The notes below the pieces were generated by a model. It was not told where the DNA came from, ran no database searches, and worked only from the letters and a program-made list of their open reading frames with translations. This document shows positions 24,299 to 48,187 of a stretch of 64,000 nucleotides of DNA, in pieces. The stretch is from Desulfomicrobium macestii (GTDB taxonomy: Bacteria > Desulfobacterota > Desulfovibrionia > Desulfovibrionales > Desulfomicrobiaceae). Every line of letters begins with the position of its first letter. Within the stretch, counting starts at the first letter, position 1. The translations under genes were made by a program, and so were the position numbers. The stretch lies in the NCBI RefSeq assembly GCF_014873765.1, contig NZ_JADBGG010000022.1, positions 1 through 64,000 of the forward strand. The letters run 5' to 3'.

Positions 24299-26893
<2,595 letters not shown>

Positions 26894-26915
26894 ATACCGC
26901 GATCGGATCCGATCG

Positions 26916-26958
26916 GCCGGCTTCGGCAGACCATGCCGGGGCCGGCTTTTTTTTGTGC
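26916..26958 (+). terminator. Terminator after clpB
   Basis: GCCGGCTTCGGC and GCCGGGGCCGGC form an imperfect GC-rich stem followed by an eight-base T run. Remaining bases up to 27121 hold no further feature that I can see. Confidence 0.88.
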
Positions 26959-27121
26959 TTCTGGCTTGAATTCAGGAACAATCCGGACGCAAGGCGTGGC
27001 TTCATTTCTGGACCTTGCGTCCGAAACGGATTAACTCGGCTTGCTTTGGCCCGCGAATGCGTATGACTCTTCCCTGCGCACCGCGCCGTGGACGCGGAAG
27101 CATATTTCAAGGAGCAACGGC

Positions 27122-32975: not shown

Positions 32976-34979
32976 TCAACGCGTCACGGTGATGGCCGGG
33001 GAGGGTTCGCCCTCCATTCCGGTGGCCGTATGATGGATGATGCGGTAGCTTGCCGGGCCTGCGGAGGGGTTGGTGTCCATGGCCTGGTCCGTGTCCGACA
33101 CGCCTTTTGCGATGGTTCGCCAGGGGCCGTCCCCGCTGTCCCGCCGCTGTACGGTCAGCAGAAAGGACGCTGGCGGGGGCGTGAAGCGGATGAGGACATG
33201 GGCGAAGGGGTCCTGCACGAATTCCGCCGAGGGCGCGGCAGGCACGGGAATGGCCGGGACGCCGACCGTGACCAGACGCTTACCGCTCAATTCGCTCTCG
33301 CGCCCCGCGTTGTCCCGGGCCAGAACCGCGTACCAGTAGCTCTGGCCGGGTTCCACCGCGACGTCCACGAAACTGTGTTGGTCCGCGGAGAGGCTCTCCG
33401 CCAGCACGTCGCCTTGCCGCAGCCCTTCCTTGCCGCGCAGGATGGACAGGGTTGCAGTTTTCTTCTCCGGAACGCCCGGCGCAAAGGACAGCACAACCTT
33501 GCCGTCAGCGCCGTCGATGGCGGTGATGAGCGGCGTGGGGGGCTTGCTGGTGTCCTCGATGGCGGCCCTGACCTCCGCGCTGGGCGGGCTGATTTTGTTG
33601 TCGAAGGACACGGCCCTGATCCTGTAATGGTAGACCCCGAAAGTGCCCGTGATGTATTGATCCCGGTAATGCCGGTCCGAGGTGATGGACGGGTTCAGCC
33701 TGGCCCATTGCGCGGAGCCCTCGGCGCGGCGTTCCACGATGTATCCGGCAATGGGAAATTTTGCCCGGTCCCAGGTCAGCTGCGTCTCTATCGGGCTTGT
33801 CCTGGCCTGCACTTTTTGCGGCGCAGGCGGGGCCGTGGCCGTGGGCGGCATGGCCGTGGCCACGCCGGAGGGCGGCCCCATCTCGCCCGTCGGGGAGACC
33901 GACCGCACGCGGTAATGGTAGATGATGCTGTCCACGACGTCCGTATCGGTCCAAGTTGTCGTTTTTGGGTCCAGGGCCTGGGGGGTGAGCAGGGTGTACA
34001 AACCGTTTTGCGAAGTGGCCCGCTCCACGGCGAGGCCGACGATATTGGGGTTGTCTCCCGCCTTCCAGGCCAGGGTCACCTTGCCAGGCCGGGCCGTGGC
34101 CGTGAACTGTGGCGGCGGAAGCAGCGCCTGAATGTCATCCATGAACAGACCGGCCGTGACCGGGGGGCTCGTCCGCCCGAAGGCGTCCAGGCAACGCACG
34201 GTGTAGGTCAGGTTCAGGCCGACCTGGGCCAGTTCGTCGATGAAGGCCGGTTCCCCGCTGTTCCAGTTCTGGCCGAGAATGATCGCTTCCGGGCTTGCGG
34301 GCGCAGGCGGCCCATCGTTTTCCGCCCGTTCAACCGAATAGGCGATGACCGGGATTTCCGGCGATACGGGTGGCGCGTTCCAGAACAGGGCCGCGCCCTG
34401 CGGATGGGCCTCGGCGCGCAGTCCTCCGGGCGGCGGAAGGGGCGCGGTGGCCGCTCCGGCATCGACCGGGGCGCAGTCCAGCCTGGTTTTCGACGGTGCG
34501 CCCGAGGCGGAAAGGCCCACGACGGAATAGGTCCGCTTTCCCTTGGGCAGCCCCGGAAGAGCGTGAGCCACGCCCAGGGCCCTGGCCCTGGCCCAGGAGC
34601 TCATGGCCTGCATTCCCAGGACCGGCCGCAGGTTTGCGAACTCCTCCTGGCTCCCGGCCGTGGTCAGTCCCTGGACAATGGCCCGGACCAGCTGGGCTTC
34701 CTGCGCGTCCAGGGCCGACATGTGTTCGGGGCTTAGCGGGGCAATGTCCGCCAGTGTTTTGCCGTTCTGGTCCAGGAGTCGCCACCCGCCTGCGGGCCAG
34801 TATCCGGCCGGGGGCGCCCACAGGAATCGGATCTCGCCCTTGCCGTCGGAGGCGGCCAGGAGCACTCCCGCGCCCGATTTGGCTGCCGCGCCGGCCGGGG
34901 GTGCGAGGGTCAGGACCAGCATGGCCGCAAGAACCCACAGGGTCAGAGAGAATCGGAATGCGTGTCGTGTTGTGCTCAT
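32976..34979 (-). CDS. Secreted multi-repeat fibronectin type III protein
   Basis: 667 residues from the ATG at 34979. Signal peptide: residues 1-33 (FSLTLWVLAAMLVLTLAPPA). After a ~200-residue N-terminal region with a WxPPAGYWPAGGW beta motif, about five fibronectin type III-like units follow. Their starts read PPPGGLRAEAHPQGAALFWN, PPPQFTATARPGKVTLAWK, PPAPQKVQARTSPIETQLTW, PPTPLITAIDGADGKVVLSF and AAPSAEFVQDPFAHVLIRFT. No catalytic domain is visible, so a structural or adhesive surface role is likely. It starts 11 bases after the amber-split giant frame and is probably co-transcribed with it. Confidence 0.85.
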   Translation of the reverse strand: MSTTRHAFRFSLTLWVLAAMLVLTLAPPAGAAAKSGAGVLLAASDGKGEIRFLWAPPAGYWPAGGWRLLDQNGKTLADIAPLSPEHMSALDAQEAQLVRAIVQGLTTAGSQEEFANLRPVLGMQAMSSWARARALGVAHALPGLPKGKRTYSVVGLSASGAPSKTRLDCAPVDAGAATAPLPPPGGLRAEAHPQGAALFWNAPPVSPEIPVIAYSVERAENDGPPAPASPEAIILGQNWNSGEPAFIDELAQVGLNLTYTVRCLDAFGRTSPPVTAGLFMDDIQALLPPPQFTATARPGKVTLAWKAGDNPNIVGLAVERATSQNGLYTLLTPQALDPKTTTWTDTDVVDSIIYHYRVRSVSPTGEMGPPSGVATAMPPTATAPPAPQKVQARTSPIETQLTWDRAKFPIAGYIVERRAEGSAQWARLNPSITSDRHYRDQYITGTFGVYHYRIRAVSFDNKISPPSAEVRAAIEDTSKPPTPLITAIDGADGKVVLSFAPGVPEKKTATLSILRGKEGLRQGDVLAESLSADQHSFVDVAVEPGQSYWYAVLARDNAGRESELSGKRLVTVGVPAIPVPAAPSAEFVQDPFAHVLIRFTPPPASFLLTVQRRDSGDGPWRTIAKGVSDTDQAMDTNPSAGPASYRIIHHTATGMEGEPSPAITVTR

Positions 34980-34990
34980 GGTGCTGGCCT

Positions 34991-37033
34991 TCAGATCAGG
35001 GTGACATTGAGGGAGTAATCGCCGAACCATCCGCAATCGATGTCGAATCCGGCCCGCAGATGCAGCGGCATGGCCTCGACATGGAAGTTTATGGACTTGT
35101 TGGCCGAGAACTTGGCACCGCCGCAGGACGGCACCCAGGCCGAAACTCCAGCCCCGGCCCGGAAGTCCGCGGAGAGGTGCGCCGAGGGCGACACGCCCAC
35201 GCCGACCATGGCGTTGAGGTATGCCTCGACAGCGGCGAACCCCAGACAGATTTTGCCTGAACCGACCTTGAGTCCGCCTCCGAGGCGAAGCCCCATTTTC
35301 TGTCCGAGCTGCATGTAGCCGTCCACATCGGCGATGAGAAAATGCACCAGAATGGGGCTTGCCGTCCTGCCGCAGTATATTTCCCAGTCGTCCGCACCGA
35401 AATAGAGCCCCACCGTGCCCCGGTCGTCTTCGGCGCCCTTGGGCGCGGTCAGGGACACGGCCCCGCCGAACATGGACATGCTGCCCCATATCTTGCCGCT
35501 GAAGGCGCTGCCGGCGTATTCGAAGAAGGCGCCGCCATTGACCTTGTACGTCAGGAGCTTCACGCCGCTGAATTCCATGCGATAGACCGCGTCTTCCGGC
35601 AGCACTGTGATCTGTCCGGCCATCTCGAAAACCTGCGGTTCGGTGGACGAGACGCTGATCCCGGCCGAATAGACCATCACGCCGGGATTGTTCGGTGCGG
35701 CCGAAAGGGGATTGCCGGATGGGGAGAACACGTCCTTGCTGAACCCGTACGCAAGCCCTCCGTTCACGGCCTGCAGGGCCACACCCGGGAAGATGGGCGC
35801 GTTCAGGCCGCTGACATTGGCATGGGTCAGCCAGTAGCCGTCACCGGCGGCCGTGCCGTAGCGGAAGGTCGCCTTGACCGGGGTGTCCATGCCAAACATC
35901 CTGGTCTCGACCGTGCCGCCAAAGGTGTCCTGCACCGCTCCTCCGCCCGAGGCATCGGCCAGGAATATGGGGTCAAGGGATGCGTAGAGGGAGCCGCCCT
36001 GCGCGGCGAAGCCTCCCCCGCCCGTCTTGATTTCCGGAGCGATGGCGGTTTCGGCCATGGGGCGGCCGACGGGGAAGCTTATGCCCGTCGTGAACTTCGA
36101 GTGTTTGGGACCGGTGGCCACGTAGGCCTGGCCCATGGGCTTTTTCACCGTATAGACGATGTCCACCGGGGCCTCGCTCAGGCCCGGGAAATCGATATTT
36201 CCTTTGAGCGTGAAGTCCAGCCGTTCGGGCTTGAGGTCATCCACGTGGGACGTGGCCGCAATGGCCTGCAGCTGGACCTGCACGTCGCCGAGCTTGGTCT
36301 GGGCGTTCAGGCCGGCACTGTGGTCCGTCCCGTCGCCATTGAAGTACGCTACGCCGTAGATGTTGAAGAACAGGTCGCTTACAGTGGTGGAGACTTCCGT
36401 CCCGCCCTCGTCCCTGAAGGTGAAAGTCGTGTCCGTGCTGATGCCCCAGCCCGTGGTCTTGCGCTCGAACTTTCTGACCTGTGTGTGCATGCGCACGTTG
36501 CCGTAATTCTCTGTCGCCTCCTGGCCCGCGAAGTTGAATTCCAGGTCGGAATTGGCGTCCTTCTGGGTGTAGTCGAGGGTCATGGATCCGCCCTGCAGGG
36601 TCATGGCCGGCCAGGGCATTTCGATGCGCATGTTGATGTATTCGGCGACCAGCCCGTTGTTTCCGGCGTTGATGTCGATGGCGTCGAACTTGATGCTCCC
36701 GGCCCCGAATACGTAGTCGAAATTGTTGAAGCGGCTGTGTCCGGTGATGCCCGTGTCCGCGAGATACCAGTTCCTGGCGGTCACGCCCGCCTGGGTCAGC
36801 ATGAAGAGGTAGGGGTAGAGCACGGCCTTTTCCCCCAGATGCACCCCGACCCAGTCGGCTCCGCTCGCCAGCACCCCGAGCTGCGGCGCGTCCGTCGCGT
36901 CCTGCATCTGAAGCTGGGCGATTTTGAGGCCTGAGTGTCCGGCAGGGTTCGAGCCCTGGGTGCGGCTCAGGTCAAGACGCACGTCGTCGGACTCGATCTG
37001 GAAATAGCTGTGGCCGATCTGGGTCTTGGGCAA
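34991..37033 (-). CDS. C-terminal segment of the amber-interrupted giant surface protein
   Basis: 680 codons that stay in frame with the gene at 37058-41323. The frame is open without interruption from 37057 down; the TTG at 37033 is the first possible start, but it has no ribosome-binding site, nor does the first internal ATG. The protein is beta-rich and repetitive, with many Gly-Gly and short strand segments (GSMTLDYTQKDANSDLEFNF, GTVGLYFGADDWEIYCGRT), like a solenoid or barrel of an extracellular protein. Six Cys near the C-terminus could form disulfides. I recognise no family. It is expressed only by amber read-through, from a weak start, or is a relic. Confidence 0.6.
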   Translation of the reverse strand: MPKTQIGHSYFQIESDDVRLDLSRTQGSNPAGHSGLKIAQLQMQDATDAPQLGVLASGADWVGVHLGEKAVLYPYLFMLTQAGVTARNWYLADTGITGHSRFNNFDYVFGAGSIKFDAIDINAGNNGLVAEYINMRIEMPWPAMTLQGGSMTLDYTQKDANSDLEFNFAGQEATENYGNVRMHTQVRKFERKTTGWGISTDTTFTFRDEGGTEVSTTVSDLFFNIYGVAYFNGDGTDHSAGLNAQTKLGDVQVQLQAIAATSHVDDLKPERLDFTLKGNIDFPGLSEAPVDIVYTVKKPMGQAYVATGPKHSKFTTGISFPVGRPMAETAIAPEIKTGGGGFAAQGGSLYASLDPIFLADASGGGAVQDTFGGTVETRMFGMDTPVKATFRYGTAAGDGYWLTHANVSGLNAPIFPGVALQAVNGGLAYGFSKDVFSPSGNPLSAAPNNPGVMVYSAGISVSSTEPQVFEMAGQITVLPEDAVYRMEFSGVKLLTYKVNGGAFFEYAGSAFSGKIWGSMSMFGGAVSLTAPKGAEDDRGTVGLYFGADDWEIYCGRTASPILVHFLIADVDGYMQLGQKMGLRLGGGLKVGSGKICLGFAAVEAYLNAMVGVGVSPSAHLSADFRAGAGVSAWVPSCGGAKFSANKSINFHVEAMPLHLRAGFDIDCGWFGDYSLNVTLI

Positions 37034-37057
37034 TTTCTGGCTTGCGGCGTACCACCC

Positions 37058-37060
37058 CTA
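37058..37060 (-). other. In-frame amber codon splitting a ~2110-codon frame
   Basis: On the minus strand the reading CCG GAA TAG GGG TGG TAC is the only stop between 41323 and 34991. Frames on both sides are identical (difference between the two starts is a multiple of three). A single base change, for example CAG to TAG, would restore a continuous frame. Confidence 0.9.
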
Positions 37061-40000
37061 TTCCGGGATCAGGGGCGCCTCGACCCCTTGCCAGTCCGGC
37101 GGGAGAGTGCCCCCGGTCTCCACCACGCGGATGGTGTTGTCCTTGACCTTGATGTCGAAAACGGCCTTCAGGTCATCCTTCGCGTTGCCTTTGAGGCTTT
37201 TCAGGGTGGCGCTCACGCCGGGCAACTCGCCATAGGTCTGGCCCAGATTCCCGGCGTCGATGGTTCCGCTGGTGACCAGACCGTCATCCTCGACCTCAAA
37301 CTCCTTGAACCCGATGTCCACGTAGCGCACGCCCTGGCCGCTCGTACCGTCGGGCAGGTCGAAAAGCAGGGTGCCCGTGCCGCTCCAGCGGCCGTTGACC
37401 TCGGTGGCCCGGCCCTGCAGCCCGGTGATGAGGAACTCCTTGCCCCCGGCCACGGGGAAGCGGAAAATGCAGGGTTCTCCGGGCTTTGGCGCGCTGACCA
37501 GATAGGCTTTGGGCTCGGACACCACCTGGTCCGCCTGGGTCGAATAGAACTCGGGGACGGGCATGCCGCCGGGCCCTTCCTTGGCGCGGACGGCGTATTT
37601 CTTTTCGCCCTCCTCCAGCACCGCTTCGACGGTGACCTTGTGGTAGGCCGGCTTGTCCAGGGGCAGGCTGGGCGAGGTGAAGACAACGGTATCGCGCAGG
37701 ATGTCCTGGGCGTAGGTGTTGTCCTCCTTGAGCCCGGCCCTCTCGGGAGACGGGCCGATCTTGATCCCGCTCTGCTCGTGGATAACGGTGCCGTCCACCT
37801 TCCAGACCAGTCTGATCTTTCCGCTGCCGTAGTATGTAAGCTCCGCCGTGGCGAAAAAGGCGGCGTCGCAGGTCGAGGCCTTGGCCGCGTCCAGGAGCGC
37901 GCCGGCAATCTGCCCGGCGATGGGTGTTTCTGTCATCTGTCCGGTAACGGGCAGCCCCCCCTGGACTGCGATATCGGAGCCGAGCTTAGTCTGGCCGGTT
38001 TGCATGGGCTTCGCGGAGGCTTGTGAACCCTGTCCGGCGGCCTGTATCGGGCCGGACGGCTGGGTCGGGGATTGGATGGCGCCGCCCGGTTTTTGTGCCG
38101 CTGATGACTCGGCGGTTTTCTGGCCTGAGAACACGATGATGGCCAGGTTTTCGAGGTGCAAGGGGCCGATGGCGGCCGGGTCGGCCTTGATGTCGATGAT
38201 CGTGGGTTCGCAGTAGAGCAGGAAGGCCCGCCCGCCGGGAATCTTGAACTGGCCCAGCGCGCCCCTGTCAGCGGCCGATATCGACAGGTTTGAAGCGGCC
38301 GCCCCTCCCGAGGCGCTCAAGGCCGCTGGGTTGACGGCGTCGGACAGAACAGCCCCCGAGTCGGCCAGAAGGGTTTGCCCAGGCATGTGCGGGGCAAGGT
38401 GGGCCTGGCTTGGCAGCGGTTCCGGGGCCTTGCTCATGCTTACTATGCTGTGGATGGTGCCGACATCCTCGGCGGGGAGCACAAACAGGCGGATCTGGAA
38501 TTCATTCGAGTAGCGGTAGGTGTGCTGCAGCTTGACGTTGAGGTTCGCGATGGGCCGGAGCTGCTCGCCGCTGACGGATTGGCCGGTCTTTTCGACGGCG
38601 TTGCCTGGAATGGCCGTGACGATGTCGTACGAGCCGTCGCCCCAGTCGACGAACATGTTGCTGATGGTCCAGCTGTTGACCGGGGTGGTTCCGGTATACC
38701 CCGCACCCCCTGCGTATTGTCCCCAGTGCGTGTCATAGACCAGGGCCCACGGGCATTCCTCGATGTTGATCAGGCCCGAGATCTGGATCTTGTCCCCGAC
38801 ATAGAAGATGTCTCCGGCGGAGTCGACGGCGTCGGGAGTGAGCTGGGTGTTGGCCATGGAGCAGGCCAGGCCCGTGGGGCTGAAGGCGGGCAGCTTGATG
38901 GGCCAGCGCTCCGAGATCGCGATCTGCACATCAGTGGTCGTGGTGACGACCTGCTGCATGGCCGCGCCGGGGAATTGAAAGCCCCCGGTGGACTGCAGGC
39001 CGCCTGCCTGGCTGCTTCCGGCGGTTTCGCCTTCATCTGCAGCGGGCGCGCTCTGGGTAGTCACTTTCTTGTACCCGGCCACCTCCCAGAACAGGGCGTT
39101 CCGGGCAAAACCATCCGCCAGTTGTTGCGCGATGCCGCCGGGGCCCTGCGGCGCGGCGACTTCACTGATGGCGGAGCTGCCGGACGTGACGAAGTTGGCC
39201 GATCCCCCCGATGCGGACAGCCCGGACTGCAACGAGCCGGTCTTTGATCCTTCCGCTTTCGCTTCCTGCGTTTCGGGCGAGGCTTGCGCTGCGGGCTGCG
39301 GATTGCGGGCCAGGTCGAAAATTTCGGTGATGAAGTCAGCGTCAGGGGCGTAAAAGCGGTCCGGCATGGGCAACCCGCCGATTTTGCGGGTCATCAGCAC
39401 CGTGCCTGCGCCGTTGAGGATGCGCAGTTCGAACCATTGCGAGGCCACGTCTTTTTCCATCCACTCAAAGCGTGTGGAGTCCGTGACCTTGGGGGTTCCG
39501 TGGTCGCCCTGGGAGTTTTCCATGATCCAGTAGGTGCCGTGCTCCGGTTTTTCCAGGAAGATGGAGCCCATGGCAAATTCGACGTCTTTCAGCGGCGGCT
39601 GGATCACCATGGGCGGCCTGACGCCGGTGTACACGGCCTTGACCAGCCCGGACGTCCCGGTCTGGCGCCATCCGTCCTCGCCGGGCAGCCGGAATTTGAG
39701 GCCGCGCGGCCCGGGAGCGGCCTTGCCGCCCACTGTCACGGTCATGGTCGCCCTGGTGGGGTTTGCAACCTGAAGGTTCGAGACAGTCACATCCGCGCCA
39801 AGGCCCACGTTCATGCCGGCGGCGAACAGATCGCCGAGCACCGTCACTTCGTAGCTTTTGCCCGGATACCAGCGGTTTGGAGTGAGCATGGAGATGGAAG
39901 GCTGCAGCACGAGCCGGGGCAGTTCGGGCTTGGCCGCGAGTTCCGGTTTCTTTTCGATGACCACGGCCTGCAGGCGCGTCCGTTCCCAGGACGCATCCTT

Positions 40001-41323
40001 GCCGGTCCTGGCCTCCATGGGACGCGGTCCGGGGGCGGCCGATCCGGCGACCTCCACCGTGAAGGAGGCCGTGGCGGCGGAGCCGACCTTCATGTCGCGG
40101 ACCACGACATCCTTGCCGAATGCGGCTTCCAGGTTTTTTGGCAGGTGCGCGCCCTGCAGGGTGATCGCATACGTCTCGCCCGGTTCCCACTGGTTCGGGG
40201 AGATGGCCATGAGTTCGGGCCGCAATGTCTTGACGGCCGGGACGCTGATCGCTGCCGCCGGCTTGGCCTGCACCTCGGCCAGGGCCTGGGAACGGGCCCA
40301 TTTTGAGTCCGGGCCGGGGCGGATTTCCAGCCACTGCCGACCCGTCGGGGCCTGATCCGCGACGCGGACCGTCATGCGGGCCATGGCGGGGGACGCCACG
40401 GTCAGCTTTTTGATCTCGACGCCCTTGGCGAAACGCGTCTCCAGCCCCTGGACCAGGTTGGTTCCACGGACCGTGACCTCGTATTCCCCGCCCTGAGTCC
40501 ACGTGTTGGGGGTCATAGTCGTGACCATGGGCGCGGCCTGCGGCTTGACCTGGATCGGCCGCGCCGCCTTGCCCGGGGGTTCGGGTTGGGGGTTGATGGT
40601 GACCATGAACGGCAGTCGCGAAGTGTGCATGCCCGTCCTGTCGGAATAGGACACGGCCCGCTGGCCGGGCGCGGCGTCCTTGGCGGCCGTGGCCGTGACG
40701 CGCAGGGTGGCACCGCTCGGTTTGGGCAGATGGGCCGAAACTCCGGGCCCGAAGTTCATCTGGCGCACGGATTCCAGCCCCGTTCCGGAAATGGTCAGTT
40801 CCCTGCTTTCCCCCTGGGCGATGGAATTCGGCGTGATGGCCGTGATGGTCGTCGCGGCCGGGACCGCCGACACGGTCAGCCGGGCCGGGCTCGGCCTTGT
40901 CGTGCCTTTGTACTGGACGCTGATGGTGCGCACGCCCGGCGCGGCCGTGCCTTTCACGGAAACGGGGGCGAGCAATATCTTGTCGCCGACCTGCTGGATG
41001 GGGCCCACGGTCACGCCCGGACCCATGTTCAGGACCATGTCCTTGCTCAGGTTCCGGCCGGTCAGGTTCAGGGTCGCGCTTTGCCCCTGCTGCAGGGTGG
41101 CGGGGGCAACGGAAGTCAGTTCGGGAAAGGACGCCTGGGGTTGAATGACGGTCATGCCCGGGGCGGGAGCGGTTGGCGCGGTCTTTGGTGTGGTCGTGAT
41201 CTGTGGTTGTGTGGGCTTAAGCGTGGGAAAGGTTTTTTTCAGGGAGTCAGCTCCCAAGCCATGGACATCGAACAGGACGATCATTGCGATCGCAACAATC
41301 AAAGAACTGGTCCGAATTTTCAT
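37058..41323 (-). CDS. Giant secreted protein with IPT/TIG-like repeats
   Basis: 1421 residues ending at the amber codon. Signal peptide: residues 5-25 (TSSLIVAIAMIVLFDVHGLG). A Pro/Thr-rich linker is followed by five IPT/TIG-like repeats starting near residues 70, 161, 267, 372 and 478. Each opens with a TPNxWxxGxxYxVTVxGxNL-like strand and closes with APGPRxxxxR. The second half is an Ala/Gly/Ser-rich beta region with Q/P-rich linkers (SPTQPSGPIQAAGQGSQAS) and no known catalytic motif. IPT domains mediate extracellular binding and stacking. The ATG at 41323 has GAGG upstream. The next gene upstream is 241 bases away, so it may have its own promoter. Confidence 0.85.
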   Translation of the reverse strand: MKIRTSSLIVAIAMIVLFDVHGLGADSLKKTFPTLKPTQPQITTTPKTAPTAPAPGMTVIQPQASFPELTSVAPATLQQGQSATLNLTGRNLSKDMVLNMGPGVTVGPIQQVGDKILLAPVSVKGTAAPGVRTISVQYKGTTRPSPARLTVSAVPAATTITAITPNSIAQGESRELTISGTGLESVRQMNFGPGVSAHLPKPSGATLRVTATAAKDAAPGQRAVSYSDRTGMHTSRLPFMVTINPQPEPPGKAARPIQVKPQAAPMVTTMTPNTWTQGGEYEVTVRGTNLVQGLETRFAKGVEIKKLTVASPAMARMTVRVADQAPTGRQWLEIRPGPDSKWARSQALAEVQAKPAAAISVPAVKTLRPELMAISPNQWEPGETYAITLQGAHLPKNLEAAFGKDVVVRDMKVGSAATASFTVEVAGSAAPGPRPMEARTGKDASWERTRLQAVVIEKKPELAAKPELPRLVLQPSISMLTPNRWYPGKSYEVTVLGDLFAAGMNVGLGADVTVSNLQVANPTRATMTVTVGGKAAPGPRGLKFRLPGEDGWRQTGTSGLVKAVYTGVRPPMVIQPPLKDVEFAMGSIFLEKPEHGTYWIMENSQGDHGTPKVTDSTRFEWMEKDVASQWFELRILNGAGTVLMTRKIGGLPMPDRFYAPDADFITEIFDLARNPQPAAQASPETQEAKAEGSKTGSLQSGLSASGGSANFVTSGSSAISEVAAPQGPGGIAQQLADGFARNALFWEVAGYKKVTTQSAPAADEGETAGSSQAGGLQSTGGFQFPGAAMQQVVTTTTDVQIAISERWPIKLPAFSPTGLACSMANTQLTPDAVDSAGDIFYVGDKIQISGLINIEECPWALVYDTHWGQYAGGAGYTGTTPVNSWTISNMFVDWGDGSYDIVTAIPGNAVEKTGQSVSGEQLRPIANLNVKLQHTYRYSNEFQIRLFVLPAEDVGTIHSIVSMSKAPEPLPSQAHLAPHMPGQTLLADSGAVLSDAVNPAALSASGGAAASNLSISAADRGALGQFKIPGGRAFLLYCEPTIIDIKADPAAIGPLHLENLAIIVFSGQKTAESSAAQKPGGAIQSPTQPSGPIQAAGQGSQASAKPMQTGQTKLGSDIAVQGGLPVTGQMTETPIAGQIAGALLDAAKASTCDAAFFATAELTYYGSGKIRLVWKVDGTVIHEQSGIKIGPSPERAGLKEDNTYAQDILRDTVVFTSPSLPLDKPAYHKVTVEAVLEEGEKKYAVRAKEGPGGMPVPEFYSTQADQVVSEPKAYLVSAPKPGEPCIFRFPVAGGKEFLITGLQGRATEVNGRWSGTGTLLFDLPDGTSGQGVRYVDIGFKEFEVEDDGLVTSGTIDAGNLGQTYGELPGVSATLKSLKGNAKDDLKAVFDIKVKDNTIRVVETGGTLPPDWQGVEAPLIPE

Positions 41324-41564: not shown

Positions 41565-42512
41565 TTATTCTGGAGCGCTCGTAATTGGATTTTCTTTATT
41601 AGCTTGTTCCATATTTGGATCGACATATATTATCAATTGATCGTCTGATACGTTGTTCCAATTTCTTTTTGAGCTCATGCTTATTCTTCTTCCTAATCCA
41701 AATTTATATGCATGAACGTGAGATTCATATATTAAAATATGCTCTGATATTATTTTTTCTAAATTTTTTCTTGCCTCCTTTTCATTTTCAAGCTCCCTCT
41801 TAAGAATATTTATCTGGGTTTGCATTATGTCGATTTGATCCATGTTTATTCCTGAAGAGTCATCTTTTTCCATTTTGACATCCTTCGAAATGGAAACGTC
41901 GTTCTGCATAAGATGCTGTGCTGCGACAGGGCGTGTTGGCGGGTTTTGATTGTTCTGCAGTGGTAGTCCGCTTTCGGTTCTGTCCGCATTGGATTTTGCA
42001 AAGCTGAACGCTCCGGAATATCCCTGACTTTTTTTGTCTCTTGTTTCGATCCGCACGACCCAGGACTTGCCAGGCACAACGAACTGAGCAGAAGGGAGCC
42101 ATGACATAAAACTGCCGGTATTTGCGGCCCCGGTTTTGATGGCCGCCTGGACCGTGCCGCCGGGTCTGTCCATCAGGAGTATGTTCACCGTGGCGGTGGT
42201 GGCGATGGCGCTTCTGTCCCAGACGATGGCCAGGGGCTTGTCGGCCGGGTGCCGAGTGCCCTGGGCCGGGTTTTTGACGGCGATGGTGGCTTTCTGTCCC
42301 AGGGGGGCGGTGAAGCCCTGCTTCGTCGGGACGGGCGCTGTCACGCCGGGAGCGGTTTTGACGCTCGGAGCCTGCGGTGTCGGCGTGCCGGTGATCTGGT
42401 TTGGCGCCGGCGCGGTCTTCATGATCCCGGTCTTGAGTTGATCGGCCTGGGACAACGGGGCCGAACAGGTCATGCAGATCATGATGGCGGTGAACAGTAC
42501 GAGCCTACGCAT
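41565..42512 (-). CDS. Secreted coiled-coil protein with a composition break
   Basis: 315 residues from the ATG at 42512 (AAGGAG nine bases upstream). Signal peptide: residues 1-24 (LVLFTAIMICMTCSAPLSQA). The N-terminal half has a Kre9/Ser-Thr-rich type beta domain (KPLAIVWDRSAIATTATVNI, WVVRIETRDKKSQGYSGAFSF), as in many surface proteins. The last ~100 residues are a charged coiled-coil (QIDIMQTQINILKRELENEK) plus a polar tail. DNA from 41565 to about 41880 is AT-rich while the first half is GC-rich, so the gene looks like a fusion of two origins. Function unknown. Confidence 0.78.
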   Translation of the reverse strand: MRRLVLFTAIMICMTCSAPLSQADQLKTGIMKTAPAPNQITGTPTPQAPSVKTAPGVTAPVPTKQGFTAPLGQKATIAVKNPAQGTRHPADKPLAIVWDRSAIATTATVNILLMDRPGGTVQAAIKTGAANTGSFMSWLPSAQFVVPGKSWVVRIETRDKKSQGYSGAFSFAKSNADRTESGLPLQNNQNPPTRPVAAQHLMQNDVSISKDVKMEKDDSSGINMDQIDIMQTQINILKRELENEKEARKNLEKIISEHILIYESHVHAYKFGLGRRISMSSKRNWNNVSDDQLIIYVDPNMEQANKENPITSAPE

Positions 42513-42679
42513 GTGGGCACTCCTTGTGATATTGGGAGATCGTTTCATTGTTTACCCGGGCATTCCCATTCCTGACGGCCGCTTCGCGGCCCCATGACTC
42601 GCGCATGTTGTCCTTCACCCGTTTTCCGGGGCCGCTCCATCTTCCCGCTCTCAACCCCCGTCCCAAGGCGCAACGCGAG
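42513..42679. other. Gap between two surface-cluster genes
   Basis: 167 bases with no gene or clear hairpin visible. It could hold a promoter for the coiled-coil gene. Confidence 0.4.
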
Positions 42680-44293
42680 TCACTGCGCCGGCTGGGGAGT
42701 TCGTATCGGCAGCTGCGGCTTGGGTGCGGATCCGGACGGAGGCGTGGGCTGCTTCAGTATCTGCGTCGGTCGTACACACACCAGCTCCGCCGGTTTTGTC
42801 GGCTGCGACGAACTCCAGTTCCTGATTTCATAGGTATGCGTTGATTTACGCTGTTTGAGCTCATTCGCAATTTTCACGGCGACGTCGTATCCGACTTTTG
42901 CGACATTGACGTCGCATTCCTGCTGATTCTGCACATATCCCATGGATCTGTAGCAGACGTCGAAATTGACGAGAGACGGGCACGTGATCTTGTTGTTCTG
43001 CACAGGACAGTACTTGTCTTGGACGTTTTTCCGTATTCGGCTCGCGAAATTCTCGGCATGTTCGACGATGTAGTCCTCGTTGCACCATGCCCTGTGCGAT
43101 TTCGCTTTCAGCGTTGCCGCATCATCGGGGTACTTCGACACCCAGCGCTCGACGTGGGCCAGTCCGGACTGTGCGAGGTGTTGGCTGCATTCCGAGCCGA
43201 CGTTGTGTTTGATGTCGACAATCGTTGGGGAATTTGAGCCAAGGGTTTTTTCTATTTCACTGAAAAATCCCGGCAACTGTTTATCGATGAGCGTGTCGAT
43301 GCTGACCTTTTGTTGGAAAGCCTTTCTTTGCTCGTCCATGGCTGGGAGGGTTTTTTCCGCCACTTCCAGCCTCCATTGTACTTCGACAGCTTTTATATAG
43401 TAATCCAAAGCCTTATTCACGTGTTCACTCTCGAACGACAGATTGCAAAAGAGGTCTGTCATATCTGTTTTTTGCGAACATCGGGATATCATTTGCGGGT
43501 CATGCCACTTTGGAGGAGCGCTGTTCGCATCAGCTTTCAGGGACTCGACCAGCTGCCCCATCTTGCCCTGATCGTCGTGCGTGATGGCCTGCAGCCCTTC
43601 GGGAAGAACCATCGGTTTGAACACCCAATTATAGGCAAACAGTTCCCGCGGCGTCCCATCACCGCAGTCGATGATGTTCAGTTCGCAGGCGACCATTTCC
43701 GCGGCGTCATAGAATCCTTCGCCGATATCCTTGAAAAATTCCGCCACAGCCGCGAAGGAACCGAGCACTGCCTTGCCGATTTCGATCAGTTCTTCGATCA
43801 GGGCGCAGACATCCAGCCCGGCGGCCATGACGCTTGCGATGATACAGATGGCGGTTCGGCCGAGCTTTTTCACGATCTCCCAGAAATCCACCTGTACAAA
43901 GGCCAGGTAAAGTTCCAGGAGTTCCTCGACCTGGGGCGGAAGGCTGATGTTCGGGGGCGTCGCGAGCTGGTCGAGGCCGGATTTTTCGTATTCCTCGGAA
44001 GCCGTCGAGGTGATTTCCTGTGCGAGCGGGGAGTCGCTGATCTGAATGCAGTCGATGACGCCGTCTGGGCCGTCGGCTTCGACCAGGCATTGGATCAGCT
44101 CCCTGGAGGCCTGAACTTCCGTGGCGCTCATGGGCAGAAAGGGAATCGGGCCGAATTCGTTTTCAACATCGACCAGGAGGCCAAGAAAGTCGTCCAGCAC
44201 GTCGGCCCGGACGACGGTCGGTGAGAAAAATGTCATGGCTGCGGCAAGAAGCGACGCGAGGAGCAGCCGGAGGAAGAGTTTTGTAACGCTCAT
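42680..44293 (-). CDS. Large secreted protein of unknown function
   Basis: 537 residues, ATG at 44293 with GGGAGGGG upstream. Signal peptide: residues 1-30 (LLLASLLAAAMTFFSPTVVRA). The middle has an amphipathic to hydrophobic helical region (about residues 125-205: LAFVQVDFWEIVKKLGRTA, ICIIASVMAAGLDVCALIEE). The C-terminal half holds many Cys (about ten) and short charged helices (ANELKQRKSTHTYEIRNW), then a Pro-rich tail. Overall base composition is lower in GC than the neighbouring repeat genes. No family recognised. It is 15 bases upstream of... i.e. directly after the 221-residue gene, so they are co-transcribed. Confidence 0.78.
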   Translation of the reverse strand: MSVTKLFLRLLLASLLAAAMTFFSPTVVRADVLDDFLGLLVDVENEFGPIPFLPMSATEVQASRELIQCLVEADGPDGVIDCIQISDSPLAQEITSTASEEYEKSGLDQLATPPNISLPPQVEELLELYLAFVQVDFWEIVKKLGRTAICIIASVMAAGLDVCALIEELIEIGKAVLGSFAAVAEFFKDIGEGFYDAAEMVACELNIIDCGDGTPRELFAYNWVFKPMVLPEGLQAITHDDQGKMGQLVESLKADANSAPPKWHDPQMISRCSQKTDMTDLFCNLSFESEHVNKALDYYIKAVEVQWRLEVAEKTLPAMDEQRKAFQQKVSIDTLIDKQLPGFFSEIEKTLGSNSPTIVDIKHNVGSECSQHLAQSGLAHVERWVSKYPDDAATLKAKSHRAWCNEDYIVEHAENFASRIRKNVQDKYCPVQNNKITCPSLVNFDVCYRSMGYVQNQQECDVNVAKVGYDVAVKIANELKQRKSTHTYEIRNWSSSQPTKPAELVCVRPTQILKQPTPPSGSAPKPQLPIRTPQPAQ

Positions 44294-44308
44294 GATGCAT
44301 CCCCTCCC

Positions 44309-44974
44309 TTACGGCTTGGGCCGGGTTGAGTTCGGGGACGTTTTTCTTCTCTCGGCCAGGGCTTTCTTCAGTTCGCCTACAGTGATCCGCGTCCCCTGGG
44401 GGGACTCGAGCACGGTGCTGTCGGGGCGCTGCGGAATTTGGTCGACCCTGCGGCCCAGCCCCTTCTCCACGTCCTCCCGGACCTTCTTGACCAGTCCCGC
44501 GGTGTAGGTGCGGCCCGAAGGCAGCTGCACGGTTTTCTGGTCCGGCAGCGTGAAGGCCGAAGCCAGGTCGGAGGGGTTCTTCAGGGGCCTGCCAGTGGCG
44601 GCGGGCTTGGCCCGCAACTCCGGAGGCCGCCGGCTGCCCGGCTGCGCGGTCTTGAACTTCTGGGCGATGGCGGCCAGGCGGCGCGCGTCGCCCATTTTGA
44701 GGTATCGCCCCGGCGCGAGCTCGATGATGTCCCTGTCGGCAAGTGCCGCCAGCGAGCCAGGGGACATTCCCTTCGAGTATTTGATTTTCTTGGGCAGGGC
44801 TGCATTTCCCTGGGGCTGTGCATTCTGCGCTGCCGAGGTTTCCGGCGTGCCCGCGCCCTGCACGGCTTGAACGCTCGGATTTTTCGTGAAGAGGGAATCG
44901 GCGCTCAAGTTCCGGGCCATGAGCAGCCCGGTCGAAACGGCCGCCATCAGGAAGAAAGCAGTCCATGGTTTCAT
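44309..44974 (-). CDS. Small secreted basic protein of unknown function
   Basis: 221 residues, ATG at 44974 with GAGGG upstream. Signal peptide: residues 1-26 (MKPWTAFFLMAAVSTGLLMA). The mature protein is Lys/Arg/Pro-rich. Two repeat-like segments share a pattern: LADRDIIELAPGRYLKMGDA and LPDQKTVQLPSGRTYTAGLV, with a third in RPDSTVLESPQGTRITVGEL. Each ends before a basic helix, suggesting a threefold repeat of a small beta-hairpin plus helix unit. No family recognised. It lies 55 bases after the 411-residue gene in the same direction. Confidence 0.72.
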   Translation of the reverse strand: MKPWTAFFLMAAVSTGLLMARNLSADSLFTKNPSVQAVQGAGTPETSAAQNAQPQGNAALPKKIKYSKGMSPGSLAALADRDIIELAPGRYLKMGDARRLAAIAQKFKTAQPGSRRPPELRAKPAATGRPLKNPSDLASAFTLPDQKTVQLPSGRTYTAGLVKKVREDVEKGLGRRVDQIPQRPDSTVLESPQGTRITVGELKKALAERRKTSPNSTRPKP

Positions 44975-45029
44975 GGCAACCCTCGCATGGTTTGGTACCG
45001 GTCAGGGACCGGTTCCATGGCAAAAGGCG

Positions 45030-46265
45030 TTATTTTCCGGAAACCCCCTGGTCGCGCAGGGGGACCACCAGCTCCAGTTCCGAGGCCGCGCCGGAGAAGA
45101 CGACGATGCGGTAGTCGCTGGAAGCCACCGGCCGGCCGTCCACCAGGGCCTGGACCTGCCACGCGTGGGGCGAGTTGGTGACCAGCCTGGCCAGGTCGAA
45201 GACCGAGAGCATGTAGTAGTTGCGCCCGGTCCGCGCCGCGAGCACGGGAGAGGACGTGTCGAAGCCCGTCAGCGGGCGGGTCATGGCCTCGGGTTCGAGG
45301 GTGTAGAGGCGGAAGAGGTAGGTCGCCCCCTCATGCGCCGGGGACCAGGAGAAGACCGGCGGCGATTCGGACGACAGGGCCACATGCTCCCTGTCCAGGG
45401 GCGCCTGCAGGGCGACGGTCGGGAGATTGGGGATCCTCTCCTCCGCCGTGACGAAGTACTGCAGGCTCGGCAGGTCGAAGGCCGGGACGGGTTCGATGAT
45501 TTCAAAGCGTACCGTGTGCAGGCCCGTGGCGTAGGTCGGGAAGGCCGGCACCGCGGGGCTGGCGATGATGGCCTCGCGCATGCCGGGCAGGAGCTGCTTG
45601 GTCACGAAACCCAGGATCTGCCCGTCCGCGACCCAACGGCCGCGCAGGAGGCCCTGGCCGTTGTAGGTGACAATGGCCGCGGCCCGCAGGCCCTTGGTGT
45701 TGCGCGGTACGGTGATGCGTTCACCGGAATCGGGGCGCGGGGCGTCTCCCGGCGCGGGCTGGTTGAATTCGAGCTGCAGGCCGATGAGCGCGAATTGCCC
45801 GGCCGGGGCGGGCACGATCTGCAGGGTTGTTTCCAGGGTCCCCTCGGGGATGTCCAGCGCGCTGGGGTCGAAGGTGCGGGTGAAAATGATCTGTCCTGCG
45901 CCGGCCTTCATGGCTGCGGCGATGACCCGGGCCGGGACTACGAGGAGTTCCGTGCCTGTGCCCCTGGAATTGAGCACGTTGATGCTGACCGTGCGCTGCA
46001 AGGTTCCGAGGGAGTCGCCGCTGGGGGTGGAAAACTGCCCCTGGGTGGAGGTGGCGACGTAGGAGGCGTTCGGTATGGTATCCAGGACCGTGTACATCAG
46101 TTGCACCGGGCTCTGCGTGCCGGGCGAGACGTTGGCGATGCGCGGTGTGGCGGTGATGTTGGGGTCGGCCGGGGCCGGGACCGGTGCCATGAGGAGCAGG
46201 GCGATGCAGGCCAGACAGATGAGCGGCAGGGGCTGCCGCGGTGGATGCCGGAGGGTGGTGATCAT
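45030..46265 (-). CDS. Secreted beta-domain protein of unknown function
   Basis: 411 residues from the ATG at 46265 (GAGGAG seven bases upstream; the frame extends further but without a signal). Signal peptide: residues 1-33 (LPLICLACIALLLMAPVPA). The beta-rich middle is followed by an FN3-like C-terminal domain (PPVFSWSPAHEGATYLFRLY, HAWQVQALVDGRPVASSDY), where a conserved FxWSP-type strand is visible. The N-terminal part is rich in T/S/P, with NITATPRIANVSPGTQSPVQ. It precedes the 221-residue gene by 55 bases and follows the beta-barrel gene by 14 bases. Role unknown. Confidence 0.75.
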   Translation of the reverse strand: MITTLRHPPRQPLPLICLACIALLLMAPVPAPADPNITATPRIANVSPGTQSPVQLMYTVLDTIPNASYVATSTQGQFSTPSGDSLGTLQRTVSINVLNSRGTGTELLVVPARVIAAAMKAGAGQIIFTRTFDPSALDIPEGTLETTLQIVPAPAGQFALIGLQLEFNQPAPGDAPRPDSGERITVPRNTKGLRAAAIVTYNGQGLLRGRWVADGQILGFVTKQLLPGMREAIIASPAVPAFPTYATGLHTVRFEIIEPVPAFDLPSLQYFVTAEERIPNLPTVALQAPLDREHVALSSESPPVFSWSPAHEGATYLFRLYTLEPEAMTRPLTGFDTSSPVLAARTGRNYYMLSVFDLARLVTNSPHAWQVQALVDGRPVASSDYRIVVFSGAASELELVVPLRDQGVSGK

Positions 46266-46279
46266 ACGGTGCTCCTCAC

Positions 46280-48187
46280 TCATGGCCATGTGACCGGAAT
46301 GCTGAAGTTCAGGGAAAGAAAGGCCACGTATTCCTCATTGTCGTCGTTGCTGATGTGGTCCCGGGTTTTGGAGTACTGCCCGCGCAGCCCCAGGGTCCTG
46401 GTCACGCTTTCCAGGAAGGTTCCGCCCAGAATCCAGTTGTATTGGGCCTGTCCGGTGAAGGCGGTCGTGTGCATGGAGTCGTCATCGGCCCGGGAGTCGA
46501 GGCCCGACACGGTCAGGTTCAGGTTCTGGGAGTCCGTGATCAGCCATGTGGCGGTCAGGGTCCCCAGCCAGTCCTCAACGACCAGGCTGCCAGGGTCGCT
46601 CTCGGTCCGGGCGTAGGTCAGGGCCGGGTTGAGGGACAGGACGGGCAGGGGTTGCCAGCCAAGCGACAGCAGCATCTGATGGGAGAAACTGTCCATGTCG
46701 GCCCCGGATTTGTCGTCGAAGGAGGTGAAGACATAGCTGGGCACGATGCTCCAGGTCTCCCTGGCCAGGGAAAGGCCGAAGGAGAGGATGCGGGACTGGT
46801 TGTCGATGGCGTCGAAATTGTCGGGTTCGTGACCGCTCTTTTGCCAGCTCAGGTTGGCGTTGGCGAAGAGGAAGGGCCAGTCCGCCTTGTTCAGCGTGTA
46901 GCCCAGGTCGAGGGCCGTGCTGCGCACCGTCGGGATGTTGTCCAGTTTTTCGGCGTTGTCGTAGCTGTGCGCGCCGTTGAAGGACAGGCTCGATTCCTCG
47001 AAGGATTTCGAGGCATGAAGCATGTACTCCTTGCGATTGTTGATGGCCCCTGGATTGATGACGCTCTGGAAGTGTCTGTCCCGGGAGGAGTAGCCGCCGC
47101 CGTAGTCCAGGGTGTCATAGCGGCCGGAAAGCCTGCTCCGCCAGGCCTCGCCCCGCTTCGATCCGTAGGGGCCACGCGTGTCCTGGTCGTAGTTGCTCCG
47201 GGCGTATTCGACTTCGCCCAGCAGAAGCTCGTCCACGATGGTGCCGGACAACCCCAGACTGTAGATCTGGCCCTTGGTCTCGGGGATGAGATCACTGCCC
47301 GAGACGTTGTCGGCCGAGCCGCTTTGCCCGGTGACCGCCGTGGCCTTGAGCAGGACGTTTTTCTGCGGGTACAGCCCTTGGGTCAGGGTGACTCCGGTGA
47401 AGCGCTGGTTCGATTCGTCCACCGGGAGCAGATGGTCGAAGTCGGCCACGGTGTTGCTGCGCAGGATGAAGCCCTGCACGGCCGTTTCTCCCGCGTTGAG
47501 CTCCAAGAGTCCGCCGCGCCGGGCCAGCTGGCCGCCGGCGAGTTCCGTGGTTTCGACGCTGACGTCGCCCAGGGAGAGGCTCTGCCCGTCGTATTCCAGT
47601 TTGAGCAGGTAGGCGTTGAGGCTGAACTTGTCCTGGCCGCCATAGTTGTCGCTGTCGTCCACGAACCAGCCGTTGGCGTCCAGCGTTGCCCGGAATTTTC
47701 CTCTTTCCAGCACGGTGGACAGGGTGCCCGCGGTCTGGGCCTGCCAATCCGGCCCGGTGTTGCCGGGGTACTCGGTCAGCTTTGCGTTCAGCTCCGTGTC
47801 GAGCTGGAACGAGGCGCTGGCCCGATCCCAGGTCTCCGATTGCGGGACAAAGAAGCTCCAGTGCTCCTGGGGCAGAGGCTGGCCGTCCTGGCCCAGGACC
47901 TCCACGATGACGCTGTGCGCGCCGAAGTCAAGGTCGGCTTCCGGAGTGTAGCTGACCGTTGTCTCGGTGATGACGGCCAGAGCGGTGATGTCCACGTCGT
48001 CGAGGGCCATGCGCACGGTCTCCGGACCGGGGTTCAGGGTCCCCGGCGGCAGGGGTGCGGTGATGGTCGGCCTGCGGTCCTCGACGCGCGCGCCGTTCAT
48101 GTCCGGAAACACGAGAGCCTCGGCGGCCGTGGCCGTCACAAAAAGGCACGTCAGGCAGTACAGTGTCACTGGGAAAAAAACGCGCAT
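46280..48187 (-). CDS. Outer membrane beta-barrel-like protein with Ig-like N-terminus
   Basis: 635 residues from the ATG at 48187 with AGGAGG nine bases upstream; a GTG nine bases earlier abuts the ribosome site. Signal peptide: residues 1-20 (FFPVTLYCLTCLFVTATAAE). A small Ig-like beta domain (DRRPTITAPLPPGTLNPGPE) is followed from about residue 110 by many alternating-pattern strands separated by Asp/Asn-rich turns (LDYGGGYSSRDRHFQSV, YTLNKADWPFLFANANLSW), consistent with a large barrel. The final strand ends FLSLNFSIPVTWP. It is the first gene of the leftward cluster and might export or anchor the secreted partners. The barrel call is by pattern only. Confidence 0.75.
   Translation of the reverse strand: MRVFFPVTLYCLTCLFVTATAAEALVFPDMNGARVEDRRPTITAPLPPGTLNPGPETVRMALDDVDITALAVITETTVSYTPEADLDFGAHSVIVEVLGQDGQPLPQEHWSFFVPQSETWDRASASFQLDTELNAKLTEYPGNTGPDWQAQTAGTLSTVLERGKFRATLDANGWFVDDSDNYGGQDKFSLNAYLLKLEYDGQSLSLGDVSVETTELAGGQLARRGGLLELNAGETAVQGFILRSNTVADFDHLLPVDESNQRFTGVTLTQGLYPQKNVLLKATAVTGQSGSADNVSGSDLIPETKGQIYSLGLSGTIVDELLLGEVEYARSNYDQDTRGPYGSKRGEAWRSRLSGRYDTLDYGGGYSSRDRHFQSVINPGAINNRKEYMLHASKSFEESSLSFNGAHSYDNAEKLDNIPTVRSTALDLGYTLNKADWPFLFANANLSWQKSGHEPDNFDAIDNQSRILSFGLSLARETWSIVPSYVFTSFDDKSGADMDSFSHQMLLSLGWQPLPVLSLNPALTYARTESDPGSLVVEDWLGTLTATWLITDSQNLNLTVSGLDSRADDDSMHTTAFTGQAQYNWILGGTFLESVTRTLGLRGQYSKTRDHISNDDNEEYVAFLSLNFSIPVTWP

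Follow-up and report, generated by a model that had tools for sequence, protein, structure and literature searches.

A single in-frame TAG, very probably the result of one base substitution, interrupts a large putative surface-protein gene of Desulfomicrobium macestii

A single TAG codon interrupts a long minus-strand frame in the genome of Desulfomicrobium macestii, and this raises the question of whether the codon ends translation, is read as an amino acid, separates two genes or is a wrong base in the assembly. We analysed a stretch of 64,000 nucleotides (the window) together with the rest of the genome. Translation of the frame that opens with the ATG at 41323 and runs to position 34991 gave one internal stop, the TAG at 37060-37058 (codon 1422 of 2111), exactly as a reading made earlier from the sequence only had described it. 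The TAG has 1421 codons upstream and 688 downstream, and the latter run without an additional stop or frameshift to a TGA at 34993-34991. An ORF of 680 codons begins within the downstream part, at a TTG at position 37033, which is codon 9 past the TAG. Since codon usage is gene-like both before and after the TAG, and the frame is continuous in related species, the split frame is more than a chance arrangement. The features of the locus are listed in Table 1.

Table 1. Features of the interrupted gene and its conserved neighbours (window coordinates).
Feature	Coordinates	Strand	Description
Upstream partner gene	45030..46289	-	419 aa, no family match; adjoins the long gene in G002
5' gene part	37061..41323	-	1421 codons; expected product if the TAG terminates; N-terminal signal-like stretch, then several IPT/TIG-like domains (PF01833; PF09099), then a low-similarity region
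In-frame TAG (codon 1422)	37058..37060	-	Ser codon in G001 and G002, Gly in G120
3' gene part	34991..37057	-	688 codons and TGA; homologous over its full length to intact relatives
Downstream partner gene	32976..34979	-	Intact, conserved; weak fibronectin-like match only

The long gene probably encodes a very large, exported protein, for which the N-terminal stretch and the IPT/TIG-like domains suggest a role at the cell surface. The part 3' of the TAG had no match in Pfam or NCBIfam, and no relatives were found among PDB sequences or on plasmids. Structure prediction for the last 815 residues of an intact relative gave a mean pLDDT of 31 (4 rows) and no usable fold.

When the part 3' of the TAG was searched against 41 related genomes, matches were found only in two, both of the same genus: G001, a metagenome-assembled genome (contig JAHIQM010000001.1) with an intact open frame of 2114 codons, and G002, with an intact open frame of 1999 codons. 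Counting the window's own genome, this part is thus present in three of the 16 genomes of the genus and missing from 13, which implies that loss of the gene is tolerated. A fourth, distant homolog was found in one of 395 genomes sampled across the phylum (G120). Amino-acid identity between the window and G001 is 85% before the TAG and 91% after it, and the corresponding values for G002 are 54% and 63%. In each of these relatives there is one continuous gene. G001 and G002 both carry an ordinary Ser codon opposite the TAG, one base apart from it, so that the comparison with relatives proposed in the sequence-only reading did find a sense codon at this site; in G120 the frame is open through the site, with Gly there. 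The TAG is therefore not shared by any of the three other homologs, and with Ser, Ser and Gly in its place no special residue is conserved. Hence, the position is itself variable, without any hint of a need for a special residue.

The core order of the 419-aa gene, the long gene and the downstream gene is kept in both G001 and G002, and the ATG of the downstream gene lies 12 nt past the TGA of the split gene. The region 5' of the split gene is variable (window 41565-42548 and 42450-44990). In this variable upstream stretch, G001 has three further relatives of a 327-aa gene, and a comparison at an E value of 1e-10 gave no counterpart of the window's 221-aa and 537-aa genes on this contig of G001. 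Elsewhere, at window 26884-27105, G001 has approximately 8 kb extra between otherwise syntenic blocks.

We examined whether the codons past the TAG have evolved differently from those before it. Between the window and G001, dN/dS is 0.25 before the TAG and 0.14 after it. With G002 as the outgroup, the lineage-specific amino-acid changes after the TAG number 16 in the window and 19 in G001 (95% interval for 16/35, 0.29-0.63), and those before it number 33 and 40, respectively. Non-synonymous changes per branch have a baseline of ~36, compared to the ~270 expected if the whole branch had been neutral (dS/2 of 0.17 x ~1590 sites), from which the unconstrained share of the window's branch would be at most ~11%. 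Neither relaxed selection nor further lesions, as an established pseudogene would show after the stop, were found. As purifying selection continues past the TAG and there is no relaxation on the window's branch, the TAG is, by this measure, either of very recent origin, a variant within the population or an error of the consensus, three states that sequence alone cannot separate. Intact downstream codons without relaxed constraint would also be expected under suppression, and a young mutation predicts the same. The earlier statement that the split is recent or suppressed is correct within its limits, with the evidence pointing to "recent", or else to "not real".

The use of TAG elsewhere in the genome bears on whether it could be decoded here. 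The window's contig has 17 TAG-ended genes that are syntenic with G001, and in 16 of them the G001 frame also ends at that place, with TAG in nine, TAA in three and TGA in four (seven that differ from TAG); the sole exception is the split surface-protein gene. In line with this, only one of the 62 genes compared on the contig has a TAG inside an orthologous frame. A scan of 758 kb of the 4.5 Mb genome found a gene-like frame following in frame after 18 of 134 TAG-ended genes and after 15 of 98 TAA-ended genes, which is no excess, so that genome-wide amber readthrough was rejected for the sequence scanned; the lower rate for TGA in the same scan is probably explained by starts that overlap in a different frame. 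Two other TAG "splits" without an immediate start in the 758 kb each consist of two complete neighbour genes that are unrelated to one another, namely, an orotate-phosphoribosyltransferase-like gene followed by an L,D-transpeptidase gene, and a response-regulator/HD gene followed by a FIST gene. On these comparisons, TAG is an ordinary stop in the window's genome. The same scan recovered, outside the window, an Fe-S oxidoreductase-like frame (a Fer4 domain, then a CCG domain; L095:16099-17442, which is G000:C2:216099-217442, +) with an in-frame TGA in "LNTE*GHVTYS", and was thus able to find recoded stops. This frame probably encodes a selenoprotein of a type already known; a tRNA-Sec is encoded in the same genome (C42:11030-11119, 86 bits).

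Release factor 1 reads UAG, and it is present in the window's genome (536 bits), the assembly of which is 99.99% complete. No match to the N-terminal (PylSn, TIGR03912) or C-terminal (PylSc, TIGR02367) domain of PylS was found in this genome with models for which a Methanosarcina control was positive, and no PylS exceeded the cut-off in the 16 genomes of the genus. Of the pyrrolysine biosynthesis proteins PylB, PylC and PylD, the search covered PylD, which gave fragments of ~20 bits only, as in control genomes lacking pyrrolysine, against a cut-off of 150. For the 60 matches to the tRNA model (RF00005), 41 anticodons were typed in addition to the tRNA-Ser(GGA) in the window, and none of them is CUA, in a set where an unusually shaped tRNA-Pyl may score low and the edge of a contig truncates one match. 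The anticodon list likewise held no canonical suppressor, i.e., a tRNA mutated to CUA. Hence, the genome search for pylS and suppressor tRNAs suggested in the sequence-only reading turned up neither, and neither of its proposals of pyrrolysine-type recoding and natural amber suppression is supported. As pyrrolysine recoding is documented for some Desulfobacterota (PMC9723677), that lead was a reasonable one, yet it is inapplicable to this genome.

Signals that might allow translation to resume or continue past the TAG were also looked for. The first ~190 codons past the TAG hold 14 candidate starts, and none of these is preceded by a Shine-Dalgarno-like stretch (at least 4 bases, at a distance of 3-12 nt), which bears out the earlier remark that the 680-codon part lacks a start with a ribosome site. 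No promoter-like site lies near the start of the 3' part, and this part has no signal peptide-like start; a downstream restart was ruled out on the lack of a ribosome site and of a promoter-like site. No readthrough hairpin was found, as each of 200 shuffled sequences gave a more stable fold than the 84 nt that begin with the TAG.

Taken together, it is very probable that one recent base substitution changed a Ser codon to TAG in a putative exported surface-protein gene of ~2110 codons, either in the organism, as a fixed or strain variant, or as an error in the sequence. The sense codon in all relatives, the one-base difference and the absence of relaxed selection support both nonsense mutation and sequencing error, the two of the earlier proposals that fit the data. 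A true nonsense mutation that truncates the protein, whether it is fixed or occurs as a strain variant, is the probable one, in keeping with the gene being dispensable across the genus. A consensus, sequencing or assembly error in an actually intact gene is a less likely but appreciable possibility: the lesion is a single substitution, without a frameshift or relaxed selection downstream, and it is the only TAG within an orthologous frame among the contig genes compared. On the other side, there is just this one such case on the contig, a second window-specific difference lies four bases on that is synonymous and typical of a divergence of 0.34 dS, and the stretch bears no mark of low quality. 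We infer a genuine mutation as opposed to an error, production of the truncated protein and decay of the gene towards a pseudogene. Release factor 1 would then terminate at the TAG to give a 1421-residue product that keeps the IPT/TIG-like domains and loses the C-terminal part, the last 688 codons would be silenced, and coupling to the following gene might be reduced.

A full-length protein made by natural amber suppression or pyrrolysine insertion is very unlikely: the constrained codons downstream are the sole point in its favour, against the missing PylS, PylD and CUA tRNA, the release factor, the normal use of TAG as a stop, the Ser, Ser and Gly residues in relatives and the missing 3' hairpin. 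An equally small chance attaches to a leaky amber read by a near-cognate tRNA, such that truncated and full-length forms coexist as a regulated or phase-variable length switch. If true, readthrough would be an unusual means of varying a surface protein, but the tests for a decoder were negative. A division of the gene into two that are each translated on their own is just as improbable; the TTG nine codons past the TAG could serve such a second gene, but neither it nor the later starts has a ribosome site, and the relatives' single gene and the missing promoter-like and signal peptide-like sequences also speak against it. In summary, the TAG is an ordinary nonsense codon, whether genuine or erroneous, and the most likely outcome is that a gene of sparse distribution, broken not long ago, yields a truncated protein of ~1421 residues. 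For annotation, both ORFs should be treated as one interrupted gene and not as two proteins; the split gene should not be cited as evidence of amber recoding, and it matters little beyond annotation.

Among known systems, bacterial single-base nonsense alleles and young pseudogenes share with this locus one in-frame stop opposite a sense codon in relatives, an otherwise intact frame and a patchy gene distribution; the split gene differs in so far having no second lesion and in that its TAG base is read from the assembly alone. Pyrrolysine (UAG) recoding (PMC9723677) also involves an in-frame TAG within a long frame, but here pylS, a pylD above the cut-off and a CUA tRNA were not found, the protein does not belong to the methylamine methyltransferases and the site shows no conservation. 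Selenocysteine (UGA) recoding, which is likely to occur in this same genome, has in common with the split gene a stop within a coding frame; it differs in using another codon, for which a decoder, the tRNA-Sec, exists.
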